Assembly (NCBI RefSeq): GCF_030123105.1
Contig: NZ_CP126095.1
Location: forward strand, 1,984,001-2,048,000
Length of the DNA: 64,000 bases
Source of the DNA: Paenibacillus sp. G2S3
Lineage (GTDB): Bacteria; Bacillota; Bacilli; Paenibacillales; Paenibacillaceae
Reading direction: 5' to 3'
The notes below the pieces were generated by a model. The model was not told the DNA's origin. It saw only the letters and a list, made by a program, of their open reading frames with translations, and did not search any database. The position numbers and the translations under genes were made by a program. Shown here in pieces: positions 6,957 to 62,908 of this stretch. Each line of letters starts with the position of its first letter. The stretch's first letter is position 1.

Positions 6957-8462
6957 ATGTCATTTAAAGTGTCTTTTATAGGGGCTGGCAGCATTGGATT
7001 TACCCGTGGATTGTTGCGGGACTTACTAACCGTACCGGAATTTAATAATATTGAAGTCTCATTTATGGATATTAATAGTTACAACCTGGAGATGGTTACC
7101 GAGCTGTGCCAACGTGATATTGAAGAGAACGGATTAAATATTCAAATTCAGGCGACGACAGATCGAAGAGAAGCTCTGAAGGATGCCAAGTACGTATTTT
7201 GTACTATTCGCATGGGTGGATTGGAAGCATTTGCTACGGATGTGGATATTCCATTGAAATACGGAGTCGATCAGTGCGTAGGAGATACCCTTTGTGCAGG
7301 CGGCATTATGTATGGACAGCGCGGAATTGCGGAAATGCTGAATATTTGCCGTGATATTAGGGAGATGGCTGATTCGGATGTACTCCTGCTTAACTATTCG
7401 AACCCTATGGCTATGCTGACTTGGGCTTGCAACAAATACGGTGGTGTACGGACGATTGGTCTGTGTCATGGTGTGCAGCATGGGCATGGGCAAATTGCAG
7501 ATGTGTATGGGCTGGAGAAATCGGAAGTTGATATTATTTGTGCGGGCATCAATCATCAGACCTGGTATATTTCGGCGAGTCATAAAGGTAAAGATTTGAC
7601 CGGAGGTCTTTTAGAAGCTTTTGAGAATCATCCAGAATTCAGTCGCACGGAAAAAGTTCGGATCGACATGCTGCGCCGCTTTGGATATTACAGTACAGAA
7701 TCCAATGGGCACCTAAGTGAATATGTGCCATGGTACCGTAAACGTAGCGAAGAAATCATGGATTGGATCGATCTCGGAAGCTGGATTAACGGCGAGACTG
7801 GTGGATATCTACGTGTCTGTACGGAAGGGCGTAATTGGTTCGAGACAGATTTCCCGAACTGGATGAAAGACCCGGCATTGGAGTATACGGTGGAGAAGCG
7901 CGGGGAAGAGCACGGCTCTTACATTATAGAAGGATTGGAAACCGGGAGAGTGTACAGAGGACACTTTAACACTGTGAACAATGGCGTGATTTCTAATCTG
8001 CCAGATGACGCGATCATCGAAGCACCGGGGTATGTAGACCGGAACGGGATCTCCATGCCGCTGGTAGGCGAATTGCCGCTTGGTCTCGCAGCGGTGTGTA
8101 ACGTTAGTATCTCAGTGCAACGCTTAGCTGTCGAAGCTGCTGTGCATGGCGATGACAAGCTACTGCGTCAAGCATTTATGATGGATCCGTTGGTAGGCGC
8201 TGTATGTAACCCAAGAGAAATCTGGCAGATGGTTGATGAGATGCTCGTAGCTGGGGAGCAGTGGCTGCCTCAATATAGCGAAGCTATTGCAAAAGCGAAG
8301 GAACGCTTGGCTTCAGGAGATCTTATTCCAACGAATGCCAACAACGAGGGCGCTGCTCGTCTGAAGGTGAAGACGGTGGATGAGATGATGCAGGACCGGG
8401 AAGCGGCGAATAAAAATGCTGGTGAATCTGACAAAGGCAAGGATAGAGAGAAGGTTCTGTAG
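6957..8462 (+). CDS. GH4 family glycosidase (alpha-galactosidase/alpha-glucosidase type)
   Basis: This cytoplasmic NAD- and Mn-dependent glycoside hydrolase of family 4 has about 501 residues. It has the N-terminal Rossmann motif FIGAGSIGFTRG (residues 8-19), the NYSNPMAMLTWA substrate/NAD segment, a CHGV metal-binding motif near 170 and INHQTWYI near 200. E. coli MelA has CHSV at the metal site, so the substrate here is not certain to be an alpha-galactoside. The ATG at 6957 is chosen because GGAGG at 6943-6947 abuts the earlier ATG but is well spaced from this one. The C-terminus carries an extra charged tail. It probably cleaves sugars imported by the upstream ABC system; that link is inference. 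Confidence 0.85.
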   Translation: MSFKVSFIGAGSIGFTRGLLRDLLTVPEFNNIEVSFMDINSYNLEMVTELCQRDIEENGLNIQIQATTDRREALKDAKYVFCTIRMGGLEAFATDVDIPLKYGVDQCVGDTLCAGGIMYGQRGIAEMLNICRDIREMADSDVLLLNYSNPMAMLTWACNKYGGVRTIGLCHGVQHGHGQIADVYGLEKSEVDIICAGINHQTWYISASHKGKDLTGGLLEAFENHPEFSRTEKVRIDMLRRFGYYSTESNGHLSEYVPWYRKRSEEIMDWIDLGSWINGETGGYLRVCTEGRNWFETDFPNWMKDPALEYTVEKRGEEHGSYIIEGLETGRVYRGHFNTVNNGVISNLPDDAIIEAPGYVDRNGISMPLVGELPLGLAAVCNVSISVQRLAVEAAVHGDDKLLRQAFMMDPLVGAVCNPREIWQMVDEMLVAGEQWLPQYSEAIAKAKERLASGDLIPTNANNEGAARLKVKTVDEMMQDREAANKNAGESDKGKDREKVL

Positions 8463-8855: not shown

Positions 8856-9615
8856 CGGACCCAGATGACGCTATTTAGCAATTTAGGGCTTTTTGAGCGT
8901 GGTTTCGGACCCCAGTGCAGCTATTGCTTGGAATGAAGCTCTGTGAGGGTGTTTTTTGTGCCAATAGGGGCTATGGGGTCCGATAGCGAGGCAAATGTGC
9001 TCAAAAGTAGCATATAAGGTCAGCTGAGTCCGAAAGCGTAGAACCCCGAGCCCACCGATTCTCCAAGAGCTCCCCGATTGTCCCCGTGCCCCAGTAATCC
9101 TTCGGTTGCCTACTATATACTATTCTAGCTCATCCCCTGATATCTACGGACCCAGATGACGCTATTTAGCAAATAATCACCTTTTGAGCGTGGTTTCGGA
9201 CCCCAGTGCAGCTATTGCTTGGAATGAAGCTCTGTGAGGGTGTTTTTTGTGCCAATAGCGGCAATGGGGTCCGATAGTAAGCCAAATGTGCTTAAAAGTC
9301 GCGTATAAGGTCATCTGAGTCCGAAAGCGTAGAACCCCGAGCCCACCGATTCTCCAAGAGCTCCCCGATTGTCCCCGAGCCCCAGTAATCCTTCGGTTGC
9401 CTACTATATACTATTTTAGCTCATCCCCTGATATCTACGGACCCAGATAACGCTATTTAGCAAATAATCGCCTTTTGAGCGTGGTTTCGGACCCCAGTGC
9501 AGCTATTGCTTGGAATGAAGCTCTGTGAGGGTGTTTTTTGTGCCAATAGCGGCTATGGGGACCGATAGCGAGGCAAATGTGCTCAAAAGTCACGTATAAG
9601 GTCAGCTGAGTCCGA
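8856..9615. repeat. Tandem array (period 291 bp) of a 178-bp nested palindromic element
   Basis: Three copies of a 178-bp element lie at 8856-9033, 9147-9324 and 9438-9615, separated by two nearly identical 113-bp spacers. Each element carries a motif starting CGGACYC at positions 1 and 51, and its inverted form ending GTCCGA at positions 128 and 178, so it is a two-fold palindrome with nested outer and inner arms. By hand count copies 1 and 2 differ at about 15 of 178 positions, while the two spacers differ at only about 2 of 113. The array lies between convergent genes (GH4 and yhbH). No ORF, transposase or CRISPR-like unit is present. A fourth copy lies at 61387-61564. Confidence 0.85.
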
Positions 9616-9752: not shown

Positions 9753-10916
9753 TTATGAATTAACAGCACCCTTTTGACTAAAGAAGGTCTTTAGCGCCTG
9801 GTACACTTCTTTTTTGTCTTTAATGACATAATGCATGAATTGTTCATGCTTCAGATGACGATAAGCAGACATTAGTGTACTGCTGCGGTTATACTGATTC
9901 ACTTCACCATAGCCAAACATATTGCTTCGTTTCAGCAGTTCTCCGATTAGCTTCACGCAACGTTCGTTGTCGGAGGTGAGGTTATCCCCGTCGGAGAAGT
10001 GAAACGGATAAATATTGTACTGCGCAGGTGGGTATCGGCTATCGATGATCTCAATCGCTTTTTGATAAGCTGAGGAACAGATGGTTCCCCCACTCTCGCC
10101 ACGAGTGAAAAAATCATGCTCGCTGACCTCTTTAGCCTCTGTATGGTGGGCGAGAAAGACAATCTCCACCTTTTCATACTGGCGGCGCAGAAATCGGGTC
10201 ATCCAGAAGAAGAAGCTGCGGGCGCAATATTTTTCAAAAGATCCCATCGAACCTGACGTATCCATCATCGCAATAATGACCGCATTGGAGTGAGGCGTTC
10301 TAATGTCATCCCATGTTTTGTAGCGCAGATCATCAGGGCTTATACTGTGAATTCCGGGATTACCTCTGCTTGCATTACGCCGAAGATTCTCCAGAAGGGT
10401 ACGTTTCTTATCGATGTTGGACATCATACCTTTTTTACGGATATCGTTGAAGATGATAGATTTAACCTCGATCTCTTCCTTATTCTTGGGCTTCAGATGA
10501 GGCAACTCCATATCCTGAAACAAGATGTCCTCCAGATCCTCCAGATTCACCTCTGCTTCCACGGTGTCTTGACCGGGTTGATCGCCTGCTTTATCCCCTT
10601 TGCCTGGCTGTGCCGACTGTGAATCGCGCCCAAGTACATCCCCGACCTGACTTTCCCCGTCGCCCTGTCCTACATGCTTTTGCTTACGGAAGTTATAGAT
10701 AATTCGATACTCATCCAGACTGCGAATCGGAACCTTTACAATCTGCTTACCGCCTGACAAAATAATATTTTCTTCGGTCACGAGATCCGGCAAATTATCC
10801 TTGATAGCTTCTCTGACCTTTTGCTGATGACGTTCCTGATCCTGATGACCTTTGCGATGAAGGGACCAGTCTTCTTTTGAAACTACAAAGGAAAAGGGAC
10901 CAGATGATTGCGACAG
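9753..10916 (-). CDS. yhbH: Sporulation protein YhbH (DUF444/UPF0229 family)
   Basis: This homologue of B. subtilis YhbH, a sporulation-associated protein of the UPF0229 family, has about 387 residues. The N-terminus shows the family signature [19 protein letters not shown] and [21 protein letters not shown] charged glycine-rich linker follows, then a von Willebrand A-like domain with the metal-binding motif MMDTSGSMG. Upstream in-frame ATGs would add about 75 residues unlike the family. The only well-placed ribosome site, GGGAGG at 10930-10925, sits 8 bases before a CTG at 10916; an in-frame GTG at 10925 overlaps that site. I therefore prefer the CTG start, which gives a family-like N-terminus. 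It works in the mother cell or forespore; the molecular role is unknown. Confidence 0.85.
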
Positions 10917-11002
10917 GATGACCACCTCCCATGGAATATAAATGTTGATTGAAGGAACCTTTTGCAAAGTAAATACTTGTGGTGATGTTTTGAAAATATA
11001 AG

Positions 11003-11032
11003 ATAGTATAAGTTTCACCCTATACATTATCC
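11003..11032 (-). promoter_or_regulatory. Possible sigma-E-type promoter of yhbH
   Basis: On the minus strand GGATAAT (11032-11026) and TATACTAT (11010-11003) resemble the sigma-E -35 and -10 elements (kmATATT, CATACAhT), about 15 bp apart. B. subtilis yhbH is, to my knowledge, sigma-E dependent. The match is imperfect. Confidence 0.3.
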
Positions 11033-11136: not shown

Positions 11137-12822
11137 TTATTCACTGATCTCTTCCACGGTCAATGTATAACTGTTCGATTGGCTCTCTCCAGAGTATTCA
11201 CGTCCATCAAGATTGAAAAAATATTGAGCGGTTACTAAGCCTTTAAGGAAACGACCCAGTACATGTTCACTTACCCGGACAAAATAATGGATGTTTACAG
11301 TAGCAGCAGCTTTGACAGTCCCAAGCGACAAGATACCGTCAAATGAAGATTGCGGATTTGGAATTCCGTCAATCACAATGCTGCTAGGATCAAGAAGACA
11401 TTCCTCCGGCGTTAGCCGATCAAGGGATACTTCTGCAGGCCAATTCCCACTATTCGTTAGGGAGATCCAGCACTGGACATGCTCTCCTTCTTCCACTAGG
11501 GTCGGCTTTGCATGAGCTTCGAGAGAAATGACAGGTGTGACAATTAAGGTAGTAACGGTATTGGAACGAGAGGTTTGTCTTACTGTTCGTCCGTCCGGGA
11601 GCACAAAAGTATACTGAACACTGCCATGGTTTTGTACGGCCGCGATGGCATGAATGTTTATAGCCGCAGGTATGCTCACTTGAAAGACCACGACCGCTGA
11701 AGTTCCGCCTCTTAATGTGCCTAGCTGAATGCCATCTGCAGGAGGGGCGCCTTTTTGCATCACTCCGTTTAAGAGAACGCTATCCCATACGAAAAGAGTG
11801 CCCGAAGGGATAGCATCGGTCAGAACCGCATTTACGGCCAAGTTCCCGCTGTTGGTTACTGTTAGCTCATATCTTAGGTTGTCACCTGGAGCTGCTGTAA
11901 CATGATCTACTCTTTTGCTGATGGTGACGCCTGCCAGAACAAGTGAGACAACGACGGTGTTGCTCTCGGTTGTATTGGGATTGTCGTCGACGGTATAAGT
12001 TACAGCTGCACGATTAGTCAGGTCCAAGGATGAAGGGATCTCTGTCACTCGGACGCGAAAGGTAATATCCATGCTTAGGTCTTTATCAAGTTGACCGAGT
12101 AATATTCCTTGCGTAGGATCTGATTCTGGATAATAGATTCCACCTGCAATGACACTCCCTGGAATGAACAGGGCTCCGTTCGGAATAGGTATCGTTGCGA
12201 TGATTTGGTTTAATAGGCTGTTTCCTTCGTTCGTGAGCCGCAATGTGTAGGTAATTACATCCCCTATAAAAGAAGTTGGAGTGCTTGCAGACAACGAGGT
12301 AGATAGCTGATAGGAACGTAAAGATACTAGTACGGTATTAGAATATAAATCTCCGTTAACGATTCTTCCCTCCGGTGTGGCAAAAGAAAAACGGCCTAGC
12401 GCTTTATTTTGCAGCACTAGTGGAGACGGCAGTGAAATGATGACGACTTGAAAGGCGATGCTCACTTGACTTTGCGGAGCAATAGAACCTAGCGGTATGC
12501 CCGAAGACGGTGTAGCCCCTGGGAGAGGCACACCGTCTCTGAGCACGCTGTTGGAAATAAAGGATACACCCTCTGGAAGAATGTCATACACCGTTAACAC
12601 AGCTTCTGTGTTTCCATCATTAGAAGCTTGAATGGTGTACACCAGAGTGTCACCTAATGAGGCATGGAGTTTGTCTGTACTCTTCAGCAATGAAAGCACG
12701 GGGCCCACGACCGGGGTGTTAACGGTATTGGAATAGACAATGCCGTCAACACCCGCTGCCGAGTTGAAGAGTACCATGGATTGATTGGTTACGACAGGCT
12801 GGGTACGTGAGCCGGGAATCAT
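11137..12822 (-). CDS. DUF11-repeat protein, C-terminal part of a split giant gene
   Basis: This 561-residue frame completes the giant repeat protein encoded just upstream. It starts in the middle of a DUF11 unit: its first residues supply the missing second half of unit 15 (ending SNTVNTPVV), followed by four further units (16-19) starting near [27 protein letters not shown] and ISLEAHAKP. The last two are the most diverged. It ends without a sortase motif, membrane anchor or cell-wall domain. The ATG overlaps the upstream stop as ATGA, which could allow coupled reinitiation, but the boundary cuts a domain. A single-base frameshift in one ancestral gene is therefore the simpler explanation. 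Confidence 0.7.
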
Positions 12823-15800
12823 AATGCTACTACCTGAACCTGGAAGGTGATGGTTGAAGAAGCACCAGCAGCAATCGTTCCAATGGCAATACCGGAAGCC
12901 GGGCTGCCATTAGGTCGTGGGGTTCCGTCTACAGTGATGCTGCCTGTTACAAACTGACTGCCTGCTGGGATAGGGTCAACCATGATAACGTTATTGACTG
13001 CTGATATCCCCAAGTTGGTAACAACAATGGTATAGGTGATGATATCGCCGACAACGGCATCTATAGAGGTAGTGCTCTTAACGACACTCACATCCGGAGA
13101 AGAGACAGGGATGATTAGGACGTTTGAAAGTGAAGTTCCGGTGAGCAGACGTCCATCGGGTGGTGTGAATGAGAAAGTTGCTGAAGCTTGATTGACTAAC
13201 TGCTGCGGTGAAGGGAGGGAGGCTACAGTAACTTGCAGGGTTATGGTCACTGTTACCGTGCTTCCCGGAGCAACTGCTCCAATATTTAATCCAGCGGACG
13301 GATCGGAGCCCGGTTGTGGCACTCCATTTACGAGCACGCTGTTTGGAACAAAGATGGCTCCGCTAGGAATTGTATCGGATACGACTACATTTGCTATGAG
13401 ATTACCGGTATTCGTTACATTCAGGAAGTAAGTAATCGTATCTCCGACCGTTGCTGCAGTTCTATCCGCGCTTTTGACAACAACGATAATTGGCTGATAT
13501 ACAGGAATAACAAGCGTATTAGAGAAAGAGGATCCCGAGAATGCTCCAGATGTGAAGCTGACGGAAGCTTGATCGGTTAGCGTTGCAGGATTAGGCAGTA
13601 CATTGACGATAGTGTTGAACGAGATATTGACCGTAACGCCCGGTGCAATTGTGCCAAGCGAGATACCATTCGCTGGATTGGCATTAGGATGTGGAGTGCC
13701 ATTAACGATCACACTGCCAGCAACAAAAGTAGACCCCGCGGGTATTGGATCACTGATGTTTACATTGCTAATATTGGCTATTCCACTATTGGTAACCGTC
13801 AAGTTGTAGGTAATAGTATCGCCAACAACGGCATCTGTAGCTGGTGAAGACTTTGTTACGATCACATTTGGTGAGGATACTGAAATAGTTGTCGTATTGG
13901 AATTGATCGAGCTGTTAAATGTCCGCCCATCAGGCAAGGTGTAAGCAAATGCTACCGATGCTTGATTTATAAGCTGCTGGCTTGCTGGTAGTGTAGAAAT
14001 GAGTACGGAGAACATGACAGACAGTGTTGCACCTGCGGATATAACACCGAGTGGAATGCCAGCGGCAGGATCTGCTCCAGGAGCTGGAGCACCTTGAATA
14101 AGCACACTGTTTGGCACAAAAGTTGTTCCAGACGGGATGGTATCACTCAGAGTAGCCAAAGCCCCATAATTTCCTGTATTGGATACATTGATCGTGTAAG
14201 TAATGGTATCTCCGACGGTCGCTTGAATTGAATTCGAGCTTTTTGCTGCGGCTAAAATCGGTAAGTAAATAGGTGTTGATACAATATTAGAAAAGGCTAC
14301 ATTTGAGAGGACGCCTGAGGTAAAGCTGACCGTTGACTGGTTATTTAGTAGGCCTGAGGGTGGCAATGAGACTGTATTCACTGTGAACGCTACAGTTACG
14401 GTTACACCTGGTGCAATACTTCCCAAAGTTACCCCCGTGGAAGGGCTAACCCCCGTACGAGGTACACCATCGACTAGCACGCTGCCTAATACAAATGTAG
14501 TACCCGCAGGAAGGGCATCCGTGAAGACGGCATTATTTACCGGTTCAATTCCGTTATTGGTAATCGTAACAGAATAGGTGATCGTGTCTCCAACAGTAGT
14601 TGCTGTGGTTGGGGTAGATTTTACAACAGCCAGATTTGGAGAAGAGACAGGGATGGTAACTGTATTAGATAGGATTGAACCACCAAGTGTGCGGCCGTCA
14701 GGTAAAGTGAAGCTATACGCTACTGTACCCTGGTTGACCAGCTGCTGAGGAGTGGGTAGTGAGGTGATATCAACCGTGAATACTACTGCTGTTGTACCAC
14801 CGGGAGGAATAACTCCTGCAGGAATACCTGTAGACGGATCTGCTTGCGCTAATGGGAGTCCATTAATGAGCACACTGTTCGTAACGAAGGTAGTGCCGGC
14901 TGGGATATTGTCCGTAATGATTAAGCTTGCTGGATAGTTACCAGTATTACTTACGGTAAGAGTATAGCTGACAGCGTCACCCGTAGTAGCATTAAGTGTA
15001 CTTGATGTTTTGACAACGGAGATGTTCGGCTGGAATACTGGGATGGTAACGGTATTAGAGAAAGTCGAACCGGAAAAAACACCTGATGTAAAGGTTACGG
15101 ATGCTTTATTGATGAGTGTAGCAGTAGGAGGAACAGAGGTGACAGTAACGCTGTAAGCAACCAGAGCTGAAGCTCCAGGCGCTAGGGTACCAATTGATAT
15201 CCCCGAAGAAGGATTCAGGTTTGGAAAAGGTACTCCGTTCACGGATACGCTACCCGTTACAAAAGCAGCACCTGCAGGCGTAGGATCATTAAGTATTATG
15301 CTATTGACAGCTTCTATACCGTTATTTGTAATATTTACGTTATAAATGACTGTATCTCCGACCGCAACAGAAGTTGAAGTTGAGCTTTTGACAACTACGA
15401 TATTAGGAGCAGAGACCTGTAGTGTGACTGTATTTGATACGGCAGTTCCGCTTAAGGGCCTACCGTCAGGAGGGGTATAGGTGAAGCTTGCAGAAGCTTG
15501 ATTGCTGATTTGTTGTGGCGATGGTAAGGAAACGATACTTACAGAGAAGCTAACAGGAATACTGGCTCCCGGTGCGACACTCCCAACAGCTATGCCCGTA
15601 TTTGGCGCTGCACCTGGTTGCGGCATACCACCGACAATAACACTGTTAGGATTAAAGACGGTTCCAGCTGGAATGTTATCGGTTAGGGTTACATTTGCTG
15701 CTAGATTTCCTGCGTTACTTACAACCACCGTATAGTTTACGGTATCACCGACAACTAAAGCATCGACATTACCGTTTCCATCCACGGCACTTTTTAATAA

Positions 15801-18500
15801 GGAGATCTGTGGCTGAATGACTGGTGTGCTGGTAATGTTAGATGAAGAAGAACCGGAGAATACACCGGATGTAAAACTGACGGATGACTGATTATTAATC
15901 TGTGATGGTATCGGCATCGTTATCCTCACCTCGAATGTTACGGTAGCTGTGGCGCCTGGACCCAGACTACCGATTGGAATGCCGGCGGACGGAACTGCTA
16001 GCGGCTGGGTAATGCCACCTACAATTACGGTTCCGGGAATAAAAGCTACATTCTCAGGCAGAGGATCGCTGAGAATGATGTTGCTTACTGTAGCAATGCT
16101 GTTGTTCGTCAATACAGAGGTGAATGTAAGGATATCACCTGTAACTGCGGTAGCAGCATTTACGCTTTTTACGACACTGACGTTAGGTGCGGAAACAGGG
16201 ACAGAGAGCGTATTGGACACTACATTTCCTCCGAGTTGACGCCCGTCTGGGAGGGTGAAGCTATAAGTTGCCGAAGCGGAGTTCAGCAACATCTGTGAAG
16301 GAGGTAATGCTGTTATCGTGACCAGAAAGCTCACGGATACACTGTCACCTGGTGCCAATGTGCCTACAGGGATTCCGGTTACAGGATTATATCCGGGTAA
16401 AGGTGTTCCGCCAATAATTACACTGTTCGCGTTAAATACAGATTGAGGTGGAAGATTATCAGTTAATAGTAGAGTGGTTGCAATATTCCCGGTATTGCTG
16501 ATGAGGATCGAGTAAGACAAAGATCCCCCTACAGATGCCTGAGCTGTATTCGCGCTTTTGACCATATTAATGATCGGTTGATACACAGGTGTTACTACCG
16601 TATTCGATAGTGAGGAACCAGTGAAGGCACCGGATGTGAAAGAAGCACTAGCTCTGTTTGCAAACTGCGATGGATTTGGTAAAGAAGAAACATTCACTTT
16701 AAAAGAGACCGTTATAGAGCTGCCTGCCGCAATACTACTGATAGATATTCCAGTACTTGGATTTGCGGCTGGTACCGATGAACCTCCAACAATAACGCTC
16801 CCTGCTACAAAAGTGCCTCCCGTAGGGATGGGGTCAGAGACGACGACATTATTCACAGCTACGCTACTTGTGTTGGACACTACGACTGTGTAAGTCAGAT
16901 TCTCGCCGACTGCGACATCAGCGACACTTGCGGTTTTACTTAGCGTAATGTTTGGAGCAGAGACAGGGATGCTAACAGTGTTTGATTGGCTAGTACCGGA
17001 TAAGGATCTACCGCTTGGTAATTGGTAAGTGTAACTGCTGCTGGCCAGATTGTTCAGAACAGGTGGTGAAGGCAGAGATTGGACAGAGACCAGAAATGTT
17101 ACGGGCACAACAGTTCCAAAGGCAATTGTACCTAGATTAATACCCGTAAGTGGGGAGTCTGTTGGTCGTACGACTCCGTTTACAGTTACACTACCCGATA
17201 CAAAGGCTGCCCCTGAGGGAATATTGTCGGTTAAGGTTACAGCTGCTCCAATATTTCCAGAGTTCTGAACATTTAATGTATAAAGAATATTGCCGCCTAC
17301 TGTTGCACTAGCGGTGTTCGAGCTTTTGACAATTTGAATGATGGGTTGATATACCGGAGTCGTAGTCGTGTTGGAAAGCGAAATGCCAGTAAAGGCTCCT
17401 GAGCTGTAGGATGCCGTAGACTTGTTCAATAGCTGTGATGGACTAGGTAATGAGATAACATTGACCTGAAAGGTGACGGCAACCGAACTTCCTGCAGCGA
17501 TTGAACCAACAGTAATCCCTGTTCCTGGATTTGCAGAGGGTTGTGACGTCCCCGCAACTGTAACACTTCCTGAAACCAGCGAAGTCCCTGCAGGAATGGT
17601 GTCTGTAAGGGTGACGTTAGTAATTGCTTCAATCCCGTTGTTGGTGATCACGGAAGTATAAAGGAGTGTATCGCCGACAGCGACATCAGCAAATCCTGCG
17701 CTTTTGACCACGGTAACATTTGGGAGTCTAACTGGAATAGACAATGTATTGGATGAGGCTGATCCAGCTATAATTCGCCCATCTGGAACCTGAAAGGTAT
17801 AGGCAGCGCTTGCTTGGTCGACCAGTTGTGGTGGAGACGGAAGGCTGTTCACTAATACACGGAATTGAATGGTAGAGCTACCTCCAGCAGCGATCGTCCC
17901 TATAGCAATACCTGTAGCAGGATTTCCAGCGACTGGCGTTCCATTGACGGTAAAACTACCCGCGACATAAGAGCTTCCTGTAGGAATGTTATCCGTAAGT
18001 GTCGTTAGCGCACCGATGTTTCCAGTGTTGGTGATTTGAAGCGTATAGGTGATTTGATCTCCGACGGTCGCATTTGCAGTGTTGGCTGATTTTATAATGC
18101 TAAGAATGGGCGAATACACGGGTAAAGTTACTGTATTGGATGGAATGACCCCGGTCATGATAGAGCCCCCGGCTACACTTTGAAACGTAAAGGCAGCATT
18201 TGCGGTATTAGCGATATTCTGCGGACTTGGTGGTAATGAAGTGACTTTGGCTTGATATGTAACTGTTATTGAAGTGCTCAAAGCTAATGACCCCAAAGAG
18301 ATTCCCGCTGTAATATCAAAGGTTGGCCTTGCGACGCCGGCCACTACAACGCTTCCGGTAACAAAGGTTGATCCTGCTGGCAGCGCATCTGATAAAACGA
18401 CGCTAGCCGCACTCGCTGTACCTGTATTACTGACAATGACAGTGTAAGTTACCGTATCCCCGACTATAGGTCCGGTCACATTGGCACTTTTAGTAACGTT
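11290..18500 (-). repeat. Nineteen DUF11 repeat units with alternating A/B types
   Basis: Nineteen coding repeats of about 380 bp run across both ORFs. From unit 2 onward they alternate: one type has SNTGN and ends in TFxxPDGR...SNT, the other has TNNG and ends in FTSGxFxGxxxSNT. The real repeat period is thus a two-unit block of about 780 bp. Units 16-19 in the second ORF are less regular. Confidence 0.75.
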
Positions 18501-19547
18501 TATTTTGGGTGCGTTGATATCAACTTGTATGGCATTTCCATTGAGCACATAAGCATCACCAGAGGTAGTTAATTGTAAAATGGCGGAAGACTGGTTATTT
18601 GCAAGTCTGGCCGACACGTCAACATTAGTAATGTCCCAGCCTTGTCGGCCACCGATAATGTTGGTGCCTGGATTTCCGTTTGTTTGATTGCGATTTCCGA
18701 ATGTTCCAGTGGTATCCAGTACACCTAGATCGTTGTTAATCTGTGAAGCGAAGAAGTTGTTGGCAAAGTTATTGGGTCCTGATAAAGCTACAAGCGTAGC
18801 TGATGTAGGCCCGAACAATGCCTGGTCTCCCGAACGATTCGCATCACCCTCCTGTGCGCTAAATAGTGCCCTGCCTCCAAGTGCACCTGTAATAGGAGTT
18901 GCAAAGCCTGTTATTGTAGTAGAGACTGGTGCAGAAGTTGCCTGTACAAGTATTGCGCCTGCCCGTAAGGACATATTACGGAAGGGCAAGGATGTATTTT
19001 GATAGATTACACCAAGTGTCCAGCCCGCATGATTAGCTGTGGAATCACTAGGAATAACGATCGTACCAACTACACCGCCAGTGGTGTAGGTCCCAGCGCC
19101 GCCTTGTAAAATAATGCTGGTGACATTGGCAGAACGGACATATGCGGAAGCACCACCTCCCAAATCAACAGTATTACTAGTAGCTGCATCGGGAGTTATG
19201 CTGAACGTACTTCCGGTAGGCGTAATTAAAGAGACTGGGTTGTTTATGGCCGCACTGAGATTCACAGTTCCGTTAATATAAGTACCGCCCCATATCAGCT
19301 CTGCATATAGCACAGTGCTGCCTGATGGCAGGACCAGTATAGCGGATGAACTGTTGCTCGTATAAAGACTTGTTGTTCCATTAGGATAGGTGCCAAAAAT
19401 AGATGTAGTGTTAACAGTGGTGAAACCGCCGATGCTGTCTAGTGTCCCTGGCACTCCGACCGTATCGGAGCGACTAAGTCCAAGTGTGTTGCCTGTAAAT
19501 GTGATAGCACCGGTCGCATTGATCGTTGCCCGTACGACTAGTGGAAT
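12819..19547 (-). CDS. Giant DUF11-repeat protein (N-terminal part)
   Basis: About 2240 residues. An N-terminal domain of about 350 residues is rich in Thr/Ser/Gly (ATGAITFTGNTLGLSRSDT at its start) and is followed by 15 DUF11 units of about 127 residues, the last one cut short. Each unit opens with a VVKS-like motif, then VGDTITYT, SNTGN, DxIPAGTTFV, GSIAPG and a LP-P-QLxNQA closing strand. DUF11 units are beta-sandwich modules usually found in surface proteins. There is no signal peptide, LPXTG or membrane anchor, so export by Sec is not supported; a spore-surface or structural role is speculative. The TTG at 19571 has no ribosome site. AAGGAGGTGA at 19562-19553 points to the ATT at 19547, a rare start. 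The function is unknown. Confidence 0.75.
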   Translation of the reverse strand: MPLVVRATINATGAITFTGNTLGLSRSDTVGVPGTLDSIGGFTTVNTTSIFGTYPNGTTSLYTSNSSSAILVLPSGSTVLYAELIWGGTYINGTVNLSAAINNPVSLITPTGSTFSITPDAATSNTVDLGGGASAYVRSANVTSIILQGGAGTYTTGGVVGTIVIPSDSTANHAGWTLGVIYQNTSLPFRNMSLRAGAILVQATSAPVSTTITGFATPITGALGGRALFSAQEGDANRSGDQALFGPTSATLVALSGPNNFANNFFASQINNDLGVLDTTGTFGNRNQTNGNPGTNIIGGRQGWDITNVDVSARLANNQSSAILQLTTSGDAYVLNGNAIQVDINAPKINVTKSANVTGPIVGDTVTYTVIVSNTGTASAASVVLSDALPAGSTFVTGSVVVAGVARPTFDITAGISLGSLALSTSITVTYQAKVTSLPPSPQNIANTANAAFTFQSVAGGSIMTGVIPSNTVTLPVYSPILSIIKSANTANATVGDQITYTLQITNTGNIGALTTLTDNIPTGSSYVAGSFTVNGTPVAGNPATGIAIGTIAAGGSSTIQFRVLVNSLPSPPQLVDQASAAYTFQVPDGRIIAGSASSNTLSIPVRLPNVTVVKSAGFADVAVGDTLLYTSVITNNGIEAITNVTLTDTIPAGTSLVSGSVTVAGTSQPSANPGTGITVGSIAAGSSVAVTFQVNVISLPSPSQLLNKSTASYSSGAFTGISLSNTTTTPVYQPIIQIVKSSNTASATVGGNILYTLNVQNSGNIGAAVTLTDNIPSGAAFVSGSVTVNGVVRPTDSPLTGINLGTIAFGTVVPVTFLVSVQSLPSPPVLNNLASSSYTYQLPSGRSLSGTSQSNTVSIPVSAPNITLSKTASVADVAVGENLTYTVVVSNTSSVAVNNVVVSDPIPTGGTFVAGSVIVGGSSVPAANPSTGISISSIAAGSSITVSFKVNVSSLPNPSQFANRASASFTSGAFTGSSLSNTVVTPVYQPIINMVKSANTAQASVGGSLSYSILISNTGNIATTLLLTDNLPPQSVFNANSVIIGGTPLPGYNPVTGIPVGTLAPGDSVSVSFLVTITALPPSQMLLNSASATYSFTLPDGRQLGGNVVSNTLSVPVSAPNVSVVKSVNAATAVTGDILTFTSVLTNNSIATVSNIILSDPLPENVAFIPGTVIVGGITQPLAVPSAGIPIGSLGPGATATVTFEVRITMPIPSQINNQSSVSFTSGVFSGSSSSNITSTPVIQPQISLLKSAVDGNGNVDALVVGDTVNYTVVVSNAGNLAANVTLTDNIPAGTVFNPNSVIVGGMPQPGAAPNTGIAVGSVAPGASIPVSFSVSIVSLPSPQQISNQASASFTYTPPDGRPLSGTAVSNTVTLQVSAPNIVVVKSSTSTSVAVGDTVIYNVNITNNGIEAVNSIILNDPTPAGAAFVTGSVSVNGVPFPNLNPSSGISIGTLAPGASALVAYSVTVTSVPPTATLINKASVTFTSGVFSGSTFSNTVTIPVFQPNISVVKTSSTLNATTGDAVSYTLTVSNTGNYPASLIITDNIPAGTTFVTNSVLINGLPLAQADPSTGIPAGVIPPGGTTAVVFTVDITSLPTPQQLVNQGTVAYSFTLPDGRTLGGSILSNTVTIPVSSPNLAVVKSTPTTATTVGDTITYSVTITNNGIEPVNNAVFTDALPAGTTFVLGSVLVDGVPRTGVSPSTGVTLGSIAPGVTVTVAFTVNTVSLPPSGLLNNQSTVSFTSGVLSNVAFSNIVSTPIYLPILAAAKSSNSIQATVGDTITYTINVSNTGNYGALATLSDTIPSGTTFVPNSVLIQGAPAPGADPAAGIPLGVISAGATLSVMFSVLISTLPASQQLINQASVAFAYTLPDGRTFNSSINSNTTTISVSSPNVIVTKSSPATDAVVGDTITYNLTVTNSGIANISNVNISDPIPAGSTFVAGSVIVNGTPHPNANPANGISLGTIAPGVTVNISFNTIVNVLPNPATLTDQASVSFTSGAFSGSSFSNTLVIPVYQPIIVVVKSADRTAATVGDTITYFLNVTNTGNLIANVVVSDTIPSGAIFVPNSVLVNGVPQPGSDPSAGLNIGAVAPGSTVTVTITLQVTVASLPSPQQLVNQASATFSFTPPDGRLLTGTSLSNVLIIPVSSPDVSVVKSTTSIDAVVGDIITYTIVVTNLGISAVNNVIMVDPIPAGSQFVTGSITVDGTPRPNGSPASGIAIGTIAAGASSTITFQVQVVAL

Positions 19548-19580
19548 GATTCTCACCTCCTTCGAGGTCAATTTGCTTTT

Positions 19581-60541: not shown

Positions 60542-61294
60542 ATGAAATTTATTTTTGATTTAGATGGAACGATCTGTTTTAGCGGTAAACCTTTGAGTGA
60601 ACGAATCGTACAAGCCTTGGATGCACTTATTGAAAAAGGACATGAGGTTATTTTTGCGTCAGCCCGGCCTATTCGTGATTTATTACCTGTGTTACCGTCC
60701 CATATGCATCATTTTCCAATGGTTGGCGGTAATGGTGCGTTTATTGCAAAGGGCGGAGAGGTTGTTTCGACAATACATTTTGACCCCCAAACTTCGGAGA
60801 GTATCTTAAAGTTAATCGAAGAATTTGATGCTGCTTATTTGATTGATAGTCACTGGGATTATTCATATTCGGGTTCTGATGATCATCCGATTCGTAGAAA
60901 TGTAGATCCAGAACAACGCGCCAAAAATGTTACTCCATCTGAGCTAGATGAGCTTGCGAAAGTAGTTATTTTGAGTAGTGTAAACGGGGAACAGTTATTA
61001 GATCAGCTACATAAACTACCTGTTATGATATATAGACATGGTCAAGAGGACATTATTGATATTAGCCCTAAAGGCGTAAATAAATGGACAGGACTACAAC
61101 AATTGGGCCTAGAAACGCAGCGATTCATTGCTTTTGGCAACGATGCTAACGACATAGAAATGTTTAGACATTCCGCTCATTCGGTTTGTGTTGGAGAACA
61201 CACAGAGCTTGGCGAATTGGCAACGGAAAAGGTGAGCAACGAAGAGGAGCAAATTGTTAAAAAAATGCTGGAGTTGATGGGTGGGCTGCAATAG
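60542..61294 (+). CDS. HAD superfamily phosphatase (Cof/HAD-IIB type)
   Basis: A 250-residue cytoplasmic hydrolase. Motif I FDLDGTICFSGKP (nucleophile Asp near residue 5), motif II SAR in FASARPIRDLL, a cap domain from about 80 to 185, and motif IV FGNDANDIEMFRHS. Members dephosphorylate sugar phosphates or flavin intermediates; the substrate is unknown. GGGGAGG precedes the ATG. It is divergent from the Crp/Fnr gene. Confidence 0.88.
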   Translation: MKFIFDLDGTICFSGKPLSERIVQALDALIEKGHEVIFASARPIRDLLPVLPSHMHHFPMVGGNGAFIAKGGEVVSTIHFDPQTSESILKLIEEFDAAYLIDSHWDYSYSGSDDHPIRRNVDPEQRAKNVTPSELDELAKVVILSSVNGEQLLDQLHKLPVMIYRHGQEDIIDISPKGVNKWTGLQQLGLETQRFIAFGNDANDIEMFRHSAHSVCVGEHTELGELATEKVSNEEEQIVKKMLELMGGLQ

Positions 61295-61386: not shown

Positions 61387-61564
61387 CGGACAGTATGGTC
61401 GCTATTTCGGGATCTAGCCTCTTTTGGCGGGAGGTTCGGACTCAGGGGGCGTTATCTGGTCCCAAAGCAGCTATTTATGAACAAAAACAACCCAATAACG
61501 CCTCTGGAGTCCGAAAATCTTCATATTCGCCTGTTTTTGAGCAAATAAGGTCATCTGAGTCCGA
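61387..61564. repeat. Fourth copy of the 178-bp nested palindromic element
   Basis: This copy is exactly 178 bp and aligns to the copy at 9438-9615 without a gap. It keeps CGGAC at positions 1 and 51, CCAAT at 106-110, GTCCGA at 123-128, AAGGT at 161-165 and GAGTCCGA at the end. The middle of the element has diverged. It lies between convergent genes (HAD and MFS), ahead of their shared terminator. Bases 61295-61386 before it hold nothing I can identify. Confidence 0.85.
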
Positions 61565-61669: not shown

Positions 61670-62908
61670 TTAGATAAGTTCTTGGCGGCGATGTAAATAA
61701 CGATATAGCACACAACCTGATATCGCACATATTGCTGCACATAATCCGATAAAACCATAGCCAGCTTGAAGTCCGCGTAGCAAGCCTATTTGTGTCTCCG
61801 CACCGTAAAGCTTTTTTACACCTTCGATGACTGCTCCTATAGCATAGTTGCCGATTACGCTGCCCACTCCCATTAACGTGACTGTAAATGTGATGGCGGT
61901 ATCGCTACCATGGGGATATCTCTTTGCGATAAAAGCCATAACCGTAGGATAAATCATTGCAATCCCGATGCCTGCTGCGGCGAATAGAAAGGCGAGCTTT
62001 TCTCCACCCAAAATAGCGGCAAATGTGCACAGGGCAGAGAAGGCTGAAAATATGATAAGCGATAGGTTGAATCCAATTTTATCTGTAACCGGCCCCAGCA
62101 GGAGCCTTGCTAACGAGAAGCAGAGAAAGAAGGTGGACAACATCCCAGAAGCTGTAACCGTATCCCATTTGTATGCTTTTTCAAGGAAATTTACGAGCCA
62201 TCCGCCTACGGCAAGCTCCGATACTACTCCGAAGGACAGGATAAGGACCATTAGCCATAAAGCTGGATCACGGACTAACGATTTTAATGAAATTCGGTCC
62301 TCATGCGGAAGATCGTCACCCGGAAACGTACTCCGTAAGGCAAACAGAATAGGTAGCAGAGCTAAACTAAGCATTATTAAATACATTCCGCGCCAATCAA
62401 GAGTATGACCGAATACACTTACAGTCATTAGCCCTGTTGCCAGCAGTGGGGCTAACGTGGAACTAAATCCGTAAAAGAAATGGGATAAGTTCATCATGGT
62501 CCCGGTATTTTTAATAAAAATACGTGCTCCCAGAATGGCGAGTCCAATCTCAAGCATTCCGTTTCCGATATACATCAGGAAGTATGAAGCCGAGAAGAGG
62601 GGATAGCTATGGGAAATGTAAATTAGAACGCCAGAGAATATCATGGATGCGAAAGCAATAATACTGACAGCCTTGATCCCCCACTTACGAACCAATATAG
62701 CTGTAAAGGAACAGGCGATCAAATAACCTAGTGCATTTAAGGATAAAAGGGTACCTAGCTGCTTTTCATCTAGGCTGAAGTCAAACTGAATTCTGGGAAT
62801 GGCTGGCCCTTTAATATTTTCTGATATTCCAAACACAATAAAACCCAAGAAGATCGTTGCCAATTGCATGGCATAAACCTTGTTAAATCCGCCAAAGCGC
62901 TTTTTCAA
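61670..62908 (-). CDS. MFS transporter (FucP-like sugar permease type)
   Basis: A 412-residue membrane transporter with 12 predicted helices. N-terminal FLGFIVFGISENIKGPAIPR resembles FucP/Bsp-type MFS proteins, with a central loop near 190-205 and TAITFTVTLMGVGSVIG in the second half. It starts with TTG at 62908 after CTGGAGG. It follows the acetyltransferase gene by 27 bp and a ROK gene further upstream, so a sugar or sugar-derivative role is likely. The substrate is unknown. Confidence 0.85.
   Translation of the reverse strand: MKKRFGGFNKVYAMQLATIFLGFIVFGISENIKGPAIPRIQFDFSLDEKQLGTLLSLNALGYLIACSFTAILVRKWGIKAVSIIAFASMIFSGVLIYISHSYPLFSASYFLMYIGNGMLEIGLAILGARIFIKNTGTMMNLSHFFYGFSSTLAPLLATGLMTVSVFGHTLDWRGMYLIMLSLALLPILFALRSTFPGDDLPHEDRISLKSLVRDPALWLMVLILSFGVVSELAVGGWLVNFLEKAYKWDTVTASGMLSTFFLCFSLARLLLGPVTDKIGFNLSLIIFSAFSALCTFAAILGGEKLAFLFAAAGIGIAMIYPTVMAFIAKRYPHGSDTAITFTVTLMGVGSVIGNYAIGAVIEGVKKLYGAETQIGLLRGLQAGYGFIGLCAAICAISGCVLYRYLHRRQELI

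Follow-up and report, generated by a model that had tools for sequence, protein, structure and literature searches.

A 178-bp dyad-symmetric intergenic element of Paenibacillus and its order, with four units of fixed geometry, as a candidate recognition-and-wrapping scaffold

The stretch of DNA analysed here (the window) comprises 64,000 nucleotides of Paenibacillus sp. G2S3, whose genome (6,698,229 bases in one contig) is referred to as G000, and contains four copies of an intergenic element. Three of these form a tandem array with a period of 291 bp (copy 1, 8856..9033; copy 2, 9147..9324; copy 3, 9438..9615; nhmmer scores of 162, 170, and 165 bits, respectively, each over model positions 1-178), while a divergent copy 4 is located at 61387..61564 (41 bits with a clade model and 105 bits with a diverse model that includes copy 4). 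All four are on the minus strand, strand being the orientation of the family model, with unit U1 at the high-coordinate end. Both loci lie between genes that point toward the element (6957..8462 on the plus strand and 9753..11018 on the minus strand for the array; 60542..61294 on the plus strand and 61670..62908 on the minus strand for copy 4; ORFs from script gene calls), and no ORF of ≥100 aa overlaps an element. A sequence-only reading of the window had described four copies of 178 bp between convergent genes, with a nested arrangement of CGGAC arms (positions 1, 51, 128, and 178), no ORF, and an ungapped alignment of copy 4 to copy 3, and all of these features were recovered here. Copies 1 to 3 are identical to each other at 163-168 of 178 bases; the two spacers that separate them (113 bp each; 9034..9146 and 9325..9437) agree at 111 of 113 bases, indicating that the duplicated piece consisted of the element plus the spacer (291 bp). 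Copy 4 shares 87 of 178 bases with copy 3, whereas random 178-bp places in the window gave a mean of 44.8 matches (sd 5.9), with none above 75 outside the family. The divergence of copy 4 noted by the earlier reading stands, but copy 4 is not a decayed copy: two related species carry ungapped orthologues at the corresponding locus (142 of 178 bases identical in the related genome G001 and 149 of 178 in the more distant genome G007). The window also contains a 2250-aa ORF on the minus strand (12819-19571).

Each element is built of four units of ~20 bp (CGGAC-N6-G-N-C-N-YTATT) in the order > > < <, U1 and U2 being forward and U3 and U4 reverse, with a step of 50 bp within each half and a span of 77 bp across the centre; the consensus forms a dyad in which 104 of 177 positions equal their mirror position. 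By this unit definition, U4 and U3, both on the plus strand, are found at 8856..8878 and 8906..8928 in copy 1, 9147..9169 and 9197..9219 in copy 2, 9438..9460 and 9488..9510 in copy 3, and 61387..61409 and 61437..61459 in copy 4; U2 and U1, on the minus strand, are found at 8960..8982 and 9010..9032, 9251..9273 and 9301..9323, 9542..9564 and 9592..9614, and 61491..61513 and 61541..61563 in copies 1 to 4, respectively. Among 204 units from 51 diverse copies, the successive bases of CGGAC were conserved in 188, 200, 203, 198, and 199 units; the other near-invariant bases are G12 (184), TA at 17-18 (201 and 201), and TT at 19-20 (172 and 173).

The distances between units, measured alignment-free from the best four units in wide windows, are fixed in most copies. 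Among the copies of G000 and G001 (147 of 148 resolved), the U1-U2 step was 50 bp in 144, the U2-U3 span 77 bp in 137, and the U3-U4 step 50 bp in 142; the same distances were found in 74, 71, and 75 of the order-wide copies (77 of 79 resolved) and in 5, 4, and 4 of five further copies from other genera of the family. Family f37 (15 of 17 resolved) mostly presented 51/77/51, and shuffled controls of the measurement gave 0 of 102. This constancy is partly a product of the search, because the copies were found with full-length models that miss very different spacings; a 10-bp spacing change was still recovered by such models in genus g18, which belongs to the same family as G000. In the g18 sample (25 sequences from seven genomes, with two loci occurring twice; 23 resolved), the U1-U2 step was 50 bp in 23 and the U3-U4 step 50 bp in 22, while the central span was 87 bp (17 sequences) or 86 bp (6 sequences), that is, 9-10 bp or one helical turn longer, in the centre only. 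Addition of a whole turn points to rotational setting. The motif itself also differs in this genus: all 84 g18 units (21 unique elements; cores CGAAC in 50, CGAAT in 30, and others in 4) have A as their third base, whereas all 308 units order-wide and all 60 units of f37 have G there. Such a coordinated shift between lineages is expected of a family of sites for a DNA-binding protein, and its presence at all sites of g18 points to a protein acting in trans; it is difficult, however, to imagine how a host protein could change its specificity with dozens of sites following simultaneously. Solitary regulatory sites were considered and rejected, as a scan for units outside elements gave array neighbours and weaker matches, mostly within genes: the best 19 of 116 unit-like matches were all within 171 bp of an element, and among 45 of the 116 that were listed only two were both intergenic and far from an element, both of them weak.

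A profile search of forty ~20-kb stretches of G000 and the window (860 kb; 35 stretches centred on known matches and five picked irrespective of elements) identified at least 64 full copies at 41 loci, with one to five full copies per locus; the five stretches picked irrespective of elements contained no copies. Searches of the whole genome gave 53 matches with copy 3 and 58 with the consensus, one of the latter being a second-strand match to the same place. In G001, 84 full copies were identified in forty stretches placed round matches. Although the mean identity between copies at different G000 loci is only 69%, 131 of the 148 copies of the two genomes are exactly 178 bp long, so that many copies of fixed length, as the earlier reading had anticipated, were indeed found. 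Within arrays, copies are 90% identical, suggesting that arrays turn over by duplication. We also observed half-elements of ~80-89 bp that comprise one side of the dyad (L078:1479-1567, L036:1504-1587, and L178 at G001 3311652) and, after an element array of G001, four identical unit-like sequences with a 48-bp period (L169:10401-10567), as if single units can be amplified.

Taxonomic spread was assessed with a first model built from 50 copies by sequence only and a second one derived from 25 diverse copies; match counts obtained in this way are not copy counts, because the near-palindromic element gives separate matches on both strands. The first model matched 70 of 100 genomes of the genus, and the second, run with laxer filters on 40 of these with few or no matches, matched 19, including three new ones, for a total of 73 of 100. 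Neither search gave a match in 21 of the 100 genomes, and six more were without a match in a single search; in the 21 genomes the element is dispensable or replaced. In an order-level draw, the second model gave matches in 168 of 246 genomes, representing 35 of 46 genera; in a class-level draw, it matched 21 of 200 genomes, 16 of them from the family of G000 and five from three families outside the order.

Comparison of G000 with G001 (median amino-acid identity of 92% over 312 reciprocal best hits, some of which are non-orthologous pairs) indicated that elements are retained at their loci. Of 41 G000 loci, 40 could be located in G001 and 37 of these were filled, 25 as established by synteny and 12 by a search with a coding fragment of one neighbouring gene. 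Element orientation agreed at all 25 syntenic loci and at 10 of the 12 others, with one near tie (2621781) and one inversion (242483); at this last locus (L118 in G000, L324 in G001), the two species carry the element in opposite orientations at the same place, and G007 agrees with G000. In 12 chosen orthologous pairs, each a single copy or one copy of a short array, the elements were identical at 1734 of 2135 positions (81%) with 3 indel events, whereas the flanks of the same pairs were identical at 1354 of 2329 positions (58%) with 62 indel events. The neutral decay after insertion that is expected of a MITE was thus not observed, and the element is under purifying selection on both its sequence and its length. 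In eight of the 12 pairs, the orthologue was a better match than any G001 copy outside that locus, which fits vertical descent. Three G000 loci (2616135, 3600227, and 5886850) had no element in G001. The absence at 5886850 looks like a deletion, because an internal piece of the element remains in G001; of the other two, one coincides with a non-homologous gap and one is without synteny on one side. In G007, 13 of 16 searched loci were located, nine of them filled and four not. None of the absences examined in G001 and G007, nor any of four G001-only sites, represented a clean empty site in this species-level comparison; besides 5886850, they fell in gaps or gene-content breaks that did not align across the site. 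Loci 2616135 and 3600227, absent from both G001 and G007, could be gains.

The placement of the element relative to genes was assessed in G000 and G001 with genes called by our own script and with background pairs from stretches mostly chosen round elements. None of the 64 G000 copies and one of the 84 G001 copies overlapped a called gene. Of the classified G000 loci, 24 of 40 lay between convergent genes, whereas 85 of 669 further adjacent gene pairs from these stretches were convergent (odds ratio 10, p = 2e-11), and the enrichment was also found when only gaps of >250 bp were considered (24 of 40 loci vs. 11 of 106; p = 3e-9); in G001, 23 of 48 loci were convergent as compared to 78 of 598 (p = 3e-8). 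The earlier reading's expectation of convergent placement therefore holds as an enrichment in both genomes but not as a rule, since 16 of the 40 G000 loci are not convergent (14 codirectional and two divergent). Order-wide, the convergent enrichment is weaker: a crude gene caller applied to ~3-kb pieces, which makes for a weak estimate, classified 19 of 70 loci as convergent, 43 as codirectional, and eight as divergent. No strand bias along the replichores was seen by eye among G000 loci, and a depletion in the middle third of the G000 chromosome (8 of 41 loci) was not significant (p = 0.07).

No excess of promoter-like or terminator-like sequences was found at the elements, and the elements themselves do not have the GC-rich stem followed by a U run of an intrinsic terminator. 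In the window, a single terminator-like site lies beside the array but not within an element, and the surroundings of copy 4 have none. By eye, separate terminator-like sequences were seen outside many elements (L044, L048, L024, L028, L030, and others), among them two recurrent types, ..GGCTGCTGGGGCACC.. with a T run on the left and AGCAGCGATTCTCC hairpins on the right. The exact AGCAGCGATTCTCC motif was present in 66 of 100 genomes of the genus, including 58 of 73 element-bearing and 5 of 21 element-free genomes (counts not controlled for kinship), suggesting that this terminator motif and the element may go together; the motif was set aside as a presumed neighbour of the element rather than a part of it. 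A GGTGGATTCGGTGG-type minisatellite adjoins the element at the right flank of L044 (G007).

A/T content along the 51 diverse copies has a period of 10.1 bp that runs through units and spacers alike; the periodicity was first noticed by eye and tested afterwards. The spacers alone, with unit columns blanked, also presented a peak at 10.1 bp, above all 2000 column permutations over periods of 6-20 bp. The phases of the three spacers (8.1-8.2 bp) are matched by those of U1 (8.0), U2 (7.6), and U4 (8.1), with U3 at 9.0. A/T peaks cross the centre of the element (69, 80, 90, 100, and 111), and the central spacer alone is in phase. In single copies, the strongest spacer period fell at 9.6-10.6 bp in 43 of 51 copies, in 10 of 102 flanks, and in 15 of 204 shuffles; when all columns were used, the corresponding counts were 51 of 51 copies and 16 of 102 flanks. 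All four window copies peak at 10.1 bp, and the period was 10.1 bp in g18 and 10.3 bp in f37. Averaged flanks gave a far weaker signal (small but significant on the left, 3 of 1000 permutations; none on the right, 287 of 1000), a control that is poor because flanks are non-homologous between copies and that is superseded by the per-copy control. A wedge model with assumed parameters gave a curvature above that of the copy's own shuffles in only 38 of 51 copies; predicted writhe (sign convention checked) was negative in 49 of 51 copies as compared to 49 of 102 shuffles.

Several alternative explanations were weighed against these data. The sequence-only reading had proposed a non-autonomous mobile repeat, and a MITE-like or REPIN-like element, in which the units would be transposase sites and the dyad the element ends, with a transposase supplied in trans, would account for the many dispersed copies and the inverted symmetric ends; array copy number also varies between species, some G001 loci have no partner among the G000 stretches examined, two G000 loci have no counterpart in either G001 or G007, and the genus-wide motif switch could reflect a new mobile subfamily. 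This origin is nevertheless unlikely and the element is probably not mobile, given that the sister species have 37 of 40 located loci in common, 35 of them in the same orientation, that length is kept across a central spacer for which a transposon would have no need, and that the only near-clean absence retains a remnant, with no clean empty site among the other cases. Furthermore, no match was obtained among plasmid records with two queries or among phage records with one, in searches from which very near records may be excluded. BIMEs and REPs occur in arrays and at gene 3′ ends, REPINs show long-lived vertical descent, and RAYTs are Y1 transposases. REPs are palindromes of 20-40 bp (PMC3733652), BIME-2 are preferred gyrase sites (PMC6379681), and REPINs are dispersed miniature inverted-repeat elements (PMC3116915). 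The element described here is likewise palindromic, intergenic, and repeated, but differs from BIMEs and REPs in being one 178-bp body with four sites of fixed geometry (50/77/50 in most copies, rather than 20-40 bp units in variable arrangement), 10.1-bp phasing, and conservation of loci between species. With the REPIN-RAYT system it shares a dispersed, miniature, inverted-repeat character; however, the Y1 transposase domain (Y1_Tnp, PF01797), the one transposase type covered by our test, was not found in nine of the 20 genomes with elements that were tested (G000, G001, G012, G109, G110, G096, G103, G093, and G094), nor in 3 of 8 element-free genomes. The GTTAG ends may resemble those of an integron attC site, a class defined by R/L boxes with hairpin pairing and an integrase; the stems of the element are without covariation. 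This last feature also bears on a structured RNA read from the element, be it a hairpin, a terminator, or a small RNA, which is extremely improbable: although folding energies of the window copies, taken over both strands, are -53 to -76 kcal/mol and the CGGAC/GTCCG pairs are nearly invariant, RNAalifold gave 17 pairs that hardly vary (covariation term +0.28; one pair with a double change), and facing variable columns could pair in 1355 cases vs. 1373 expected in the clade and in 2007 vs. 1895 expected order-wide, where the surplus of 6% may be due to relatedness. Together with the absence of Rfam matches in the window at gathering scores and of any promoter-like or terminator-like excess, this argues against the long RNA hairpin that the earlier reading had listed.

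A hard-wired strong gyrase site, at which gyrase would wrap the phased DNA and remove positive supercoils between convergent genes, fits the convergent placement of the elements. For strong gyrase sites, we know of no obligatory recognition units. The E. coli gyrase motif spans 130 bp with ~10-bp phased GC content, its 36-bp centre being bordered by two periodic arms of 47 bp, and both BIME-2 and regions downstream of operons are enriched in gyrase sites (PMC6379681, PMC12393610). This motif is the nearest published parallel for the phasing that we know of, and strong gyrase sites (Mu SGS and the Topo-Seq motif) resemble the element, with its 10.1-bp period, in ~10-bp phasing over 130 bp and in location downstream of transcription. 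They differ in the 36-bp centre between the periodic arms, which contrasts with A/T peaks at 80, 90, and 100 in the element, and in their positive wrap (PMC12393610), opposite to the negative writhe predicted here. In addition, four strictly conserved units and a motif switch would be unexpected of gyrase, and the g18 centre is longer by about 10 bp. We therefore regard a gyrase site as improbable; the periodic centre, the conserved units, and the opposite handedness predicted by the wedge model would favour a dedicated architectural protein over gyrase. Recombination or segregation sites, on which a resolvase-like, Xer-like, or centromere-like complex would assemble over four sites at ~5-turn spacing, would fit the four dimer-like units at 50-57 bp spacing, an arrangement that may resemble multi-site recombination complexes. 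This reading is very improbable, since dozens of dispersed copies in both orientations would permit rearrangements, yet most element regions are collinear between G000 and G001.

The explanation we favour, with a probability of roughly one half (about 0.52), is that the element is a recognition-and-wrapping scaffold for a putative dedicated sequence-specific protein complex. Fixed site geometry and 10.1-bp phasing point to a DNA-wrapping complex; the fixed spacing with free spacer sequence, the whole-turn change, the motif dialect, and the phasing suggest that the DNA is shaped for a protein that recognises all four sites and bends ~180 bp. In the simplest mechanism, each unit would be bound by a protein subunit or dimer, four in all, with their rotational setting fixed; owing to the phased bendable steps, ~180 bp could then wrap or bend round them into a nucleosome-like particle with dyad symmetry, a prediction based on the periodicity and the wedge model. 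Such a scaffold, located between gene 3′ ends, above all convergent ones, and often in tandem arrays, could serve as an architectural boundary, retaining supercoils or stopping transcription that arrives from either side; a transcription or supercoiling boundary is our best guess at the function of the element. In eukaryotic nucleosome-positioning sequences, which are centred on a dyad, A/T steps are phased at ~10.2 bp along some 150 bp, and the element is similar in its phased A/T steps and dyad, but has four sequence-specific units and a bacterial host. parS, Noc sites, and DNA uptake sequences are dispersed single short sites with dialects that shift between lineages; the element shares the dispersed sites and the dialects between lineages and differs in being a four-site body of fixed geometry.

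We know of no hard-wired architectural elements in bacteria in which sites, phase, and spacing are all under selection. A literature search, with most subscription journals and all bioRxiv preprints outside its coverage, gave no description of this element family, and one paper (PMC12306157) contains no mention of Paenibacillus, Cohnella, Bacillales, or Firmicutes. A broader proposal, which we put forward tentatively and at less than even odds, is that genomes across the order carry dozens of hard-wired nucleosome-like elements each, and that a putative architectural protein wraps ~180 bp of each element in a left-handed manner at gene 3′ ends, thereby marking chromosome boundaries. If so, the sequence itself would mark how the chromosome is folded by a putative protein in a large bacterial group. 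The one-turn variant and the motif dialect predict the tolerance of the binding protein and where its DNA-reading residues must differ, and the sequence encoding of bacterial domain boundaries would, if this proposal is true, become directly testable.
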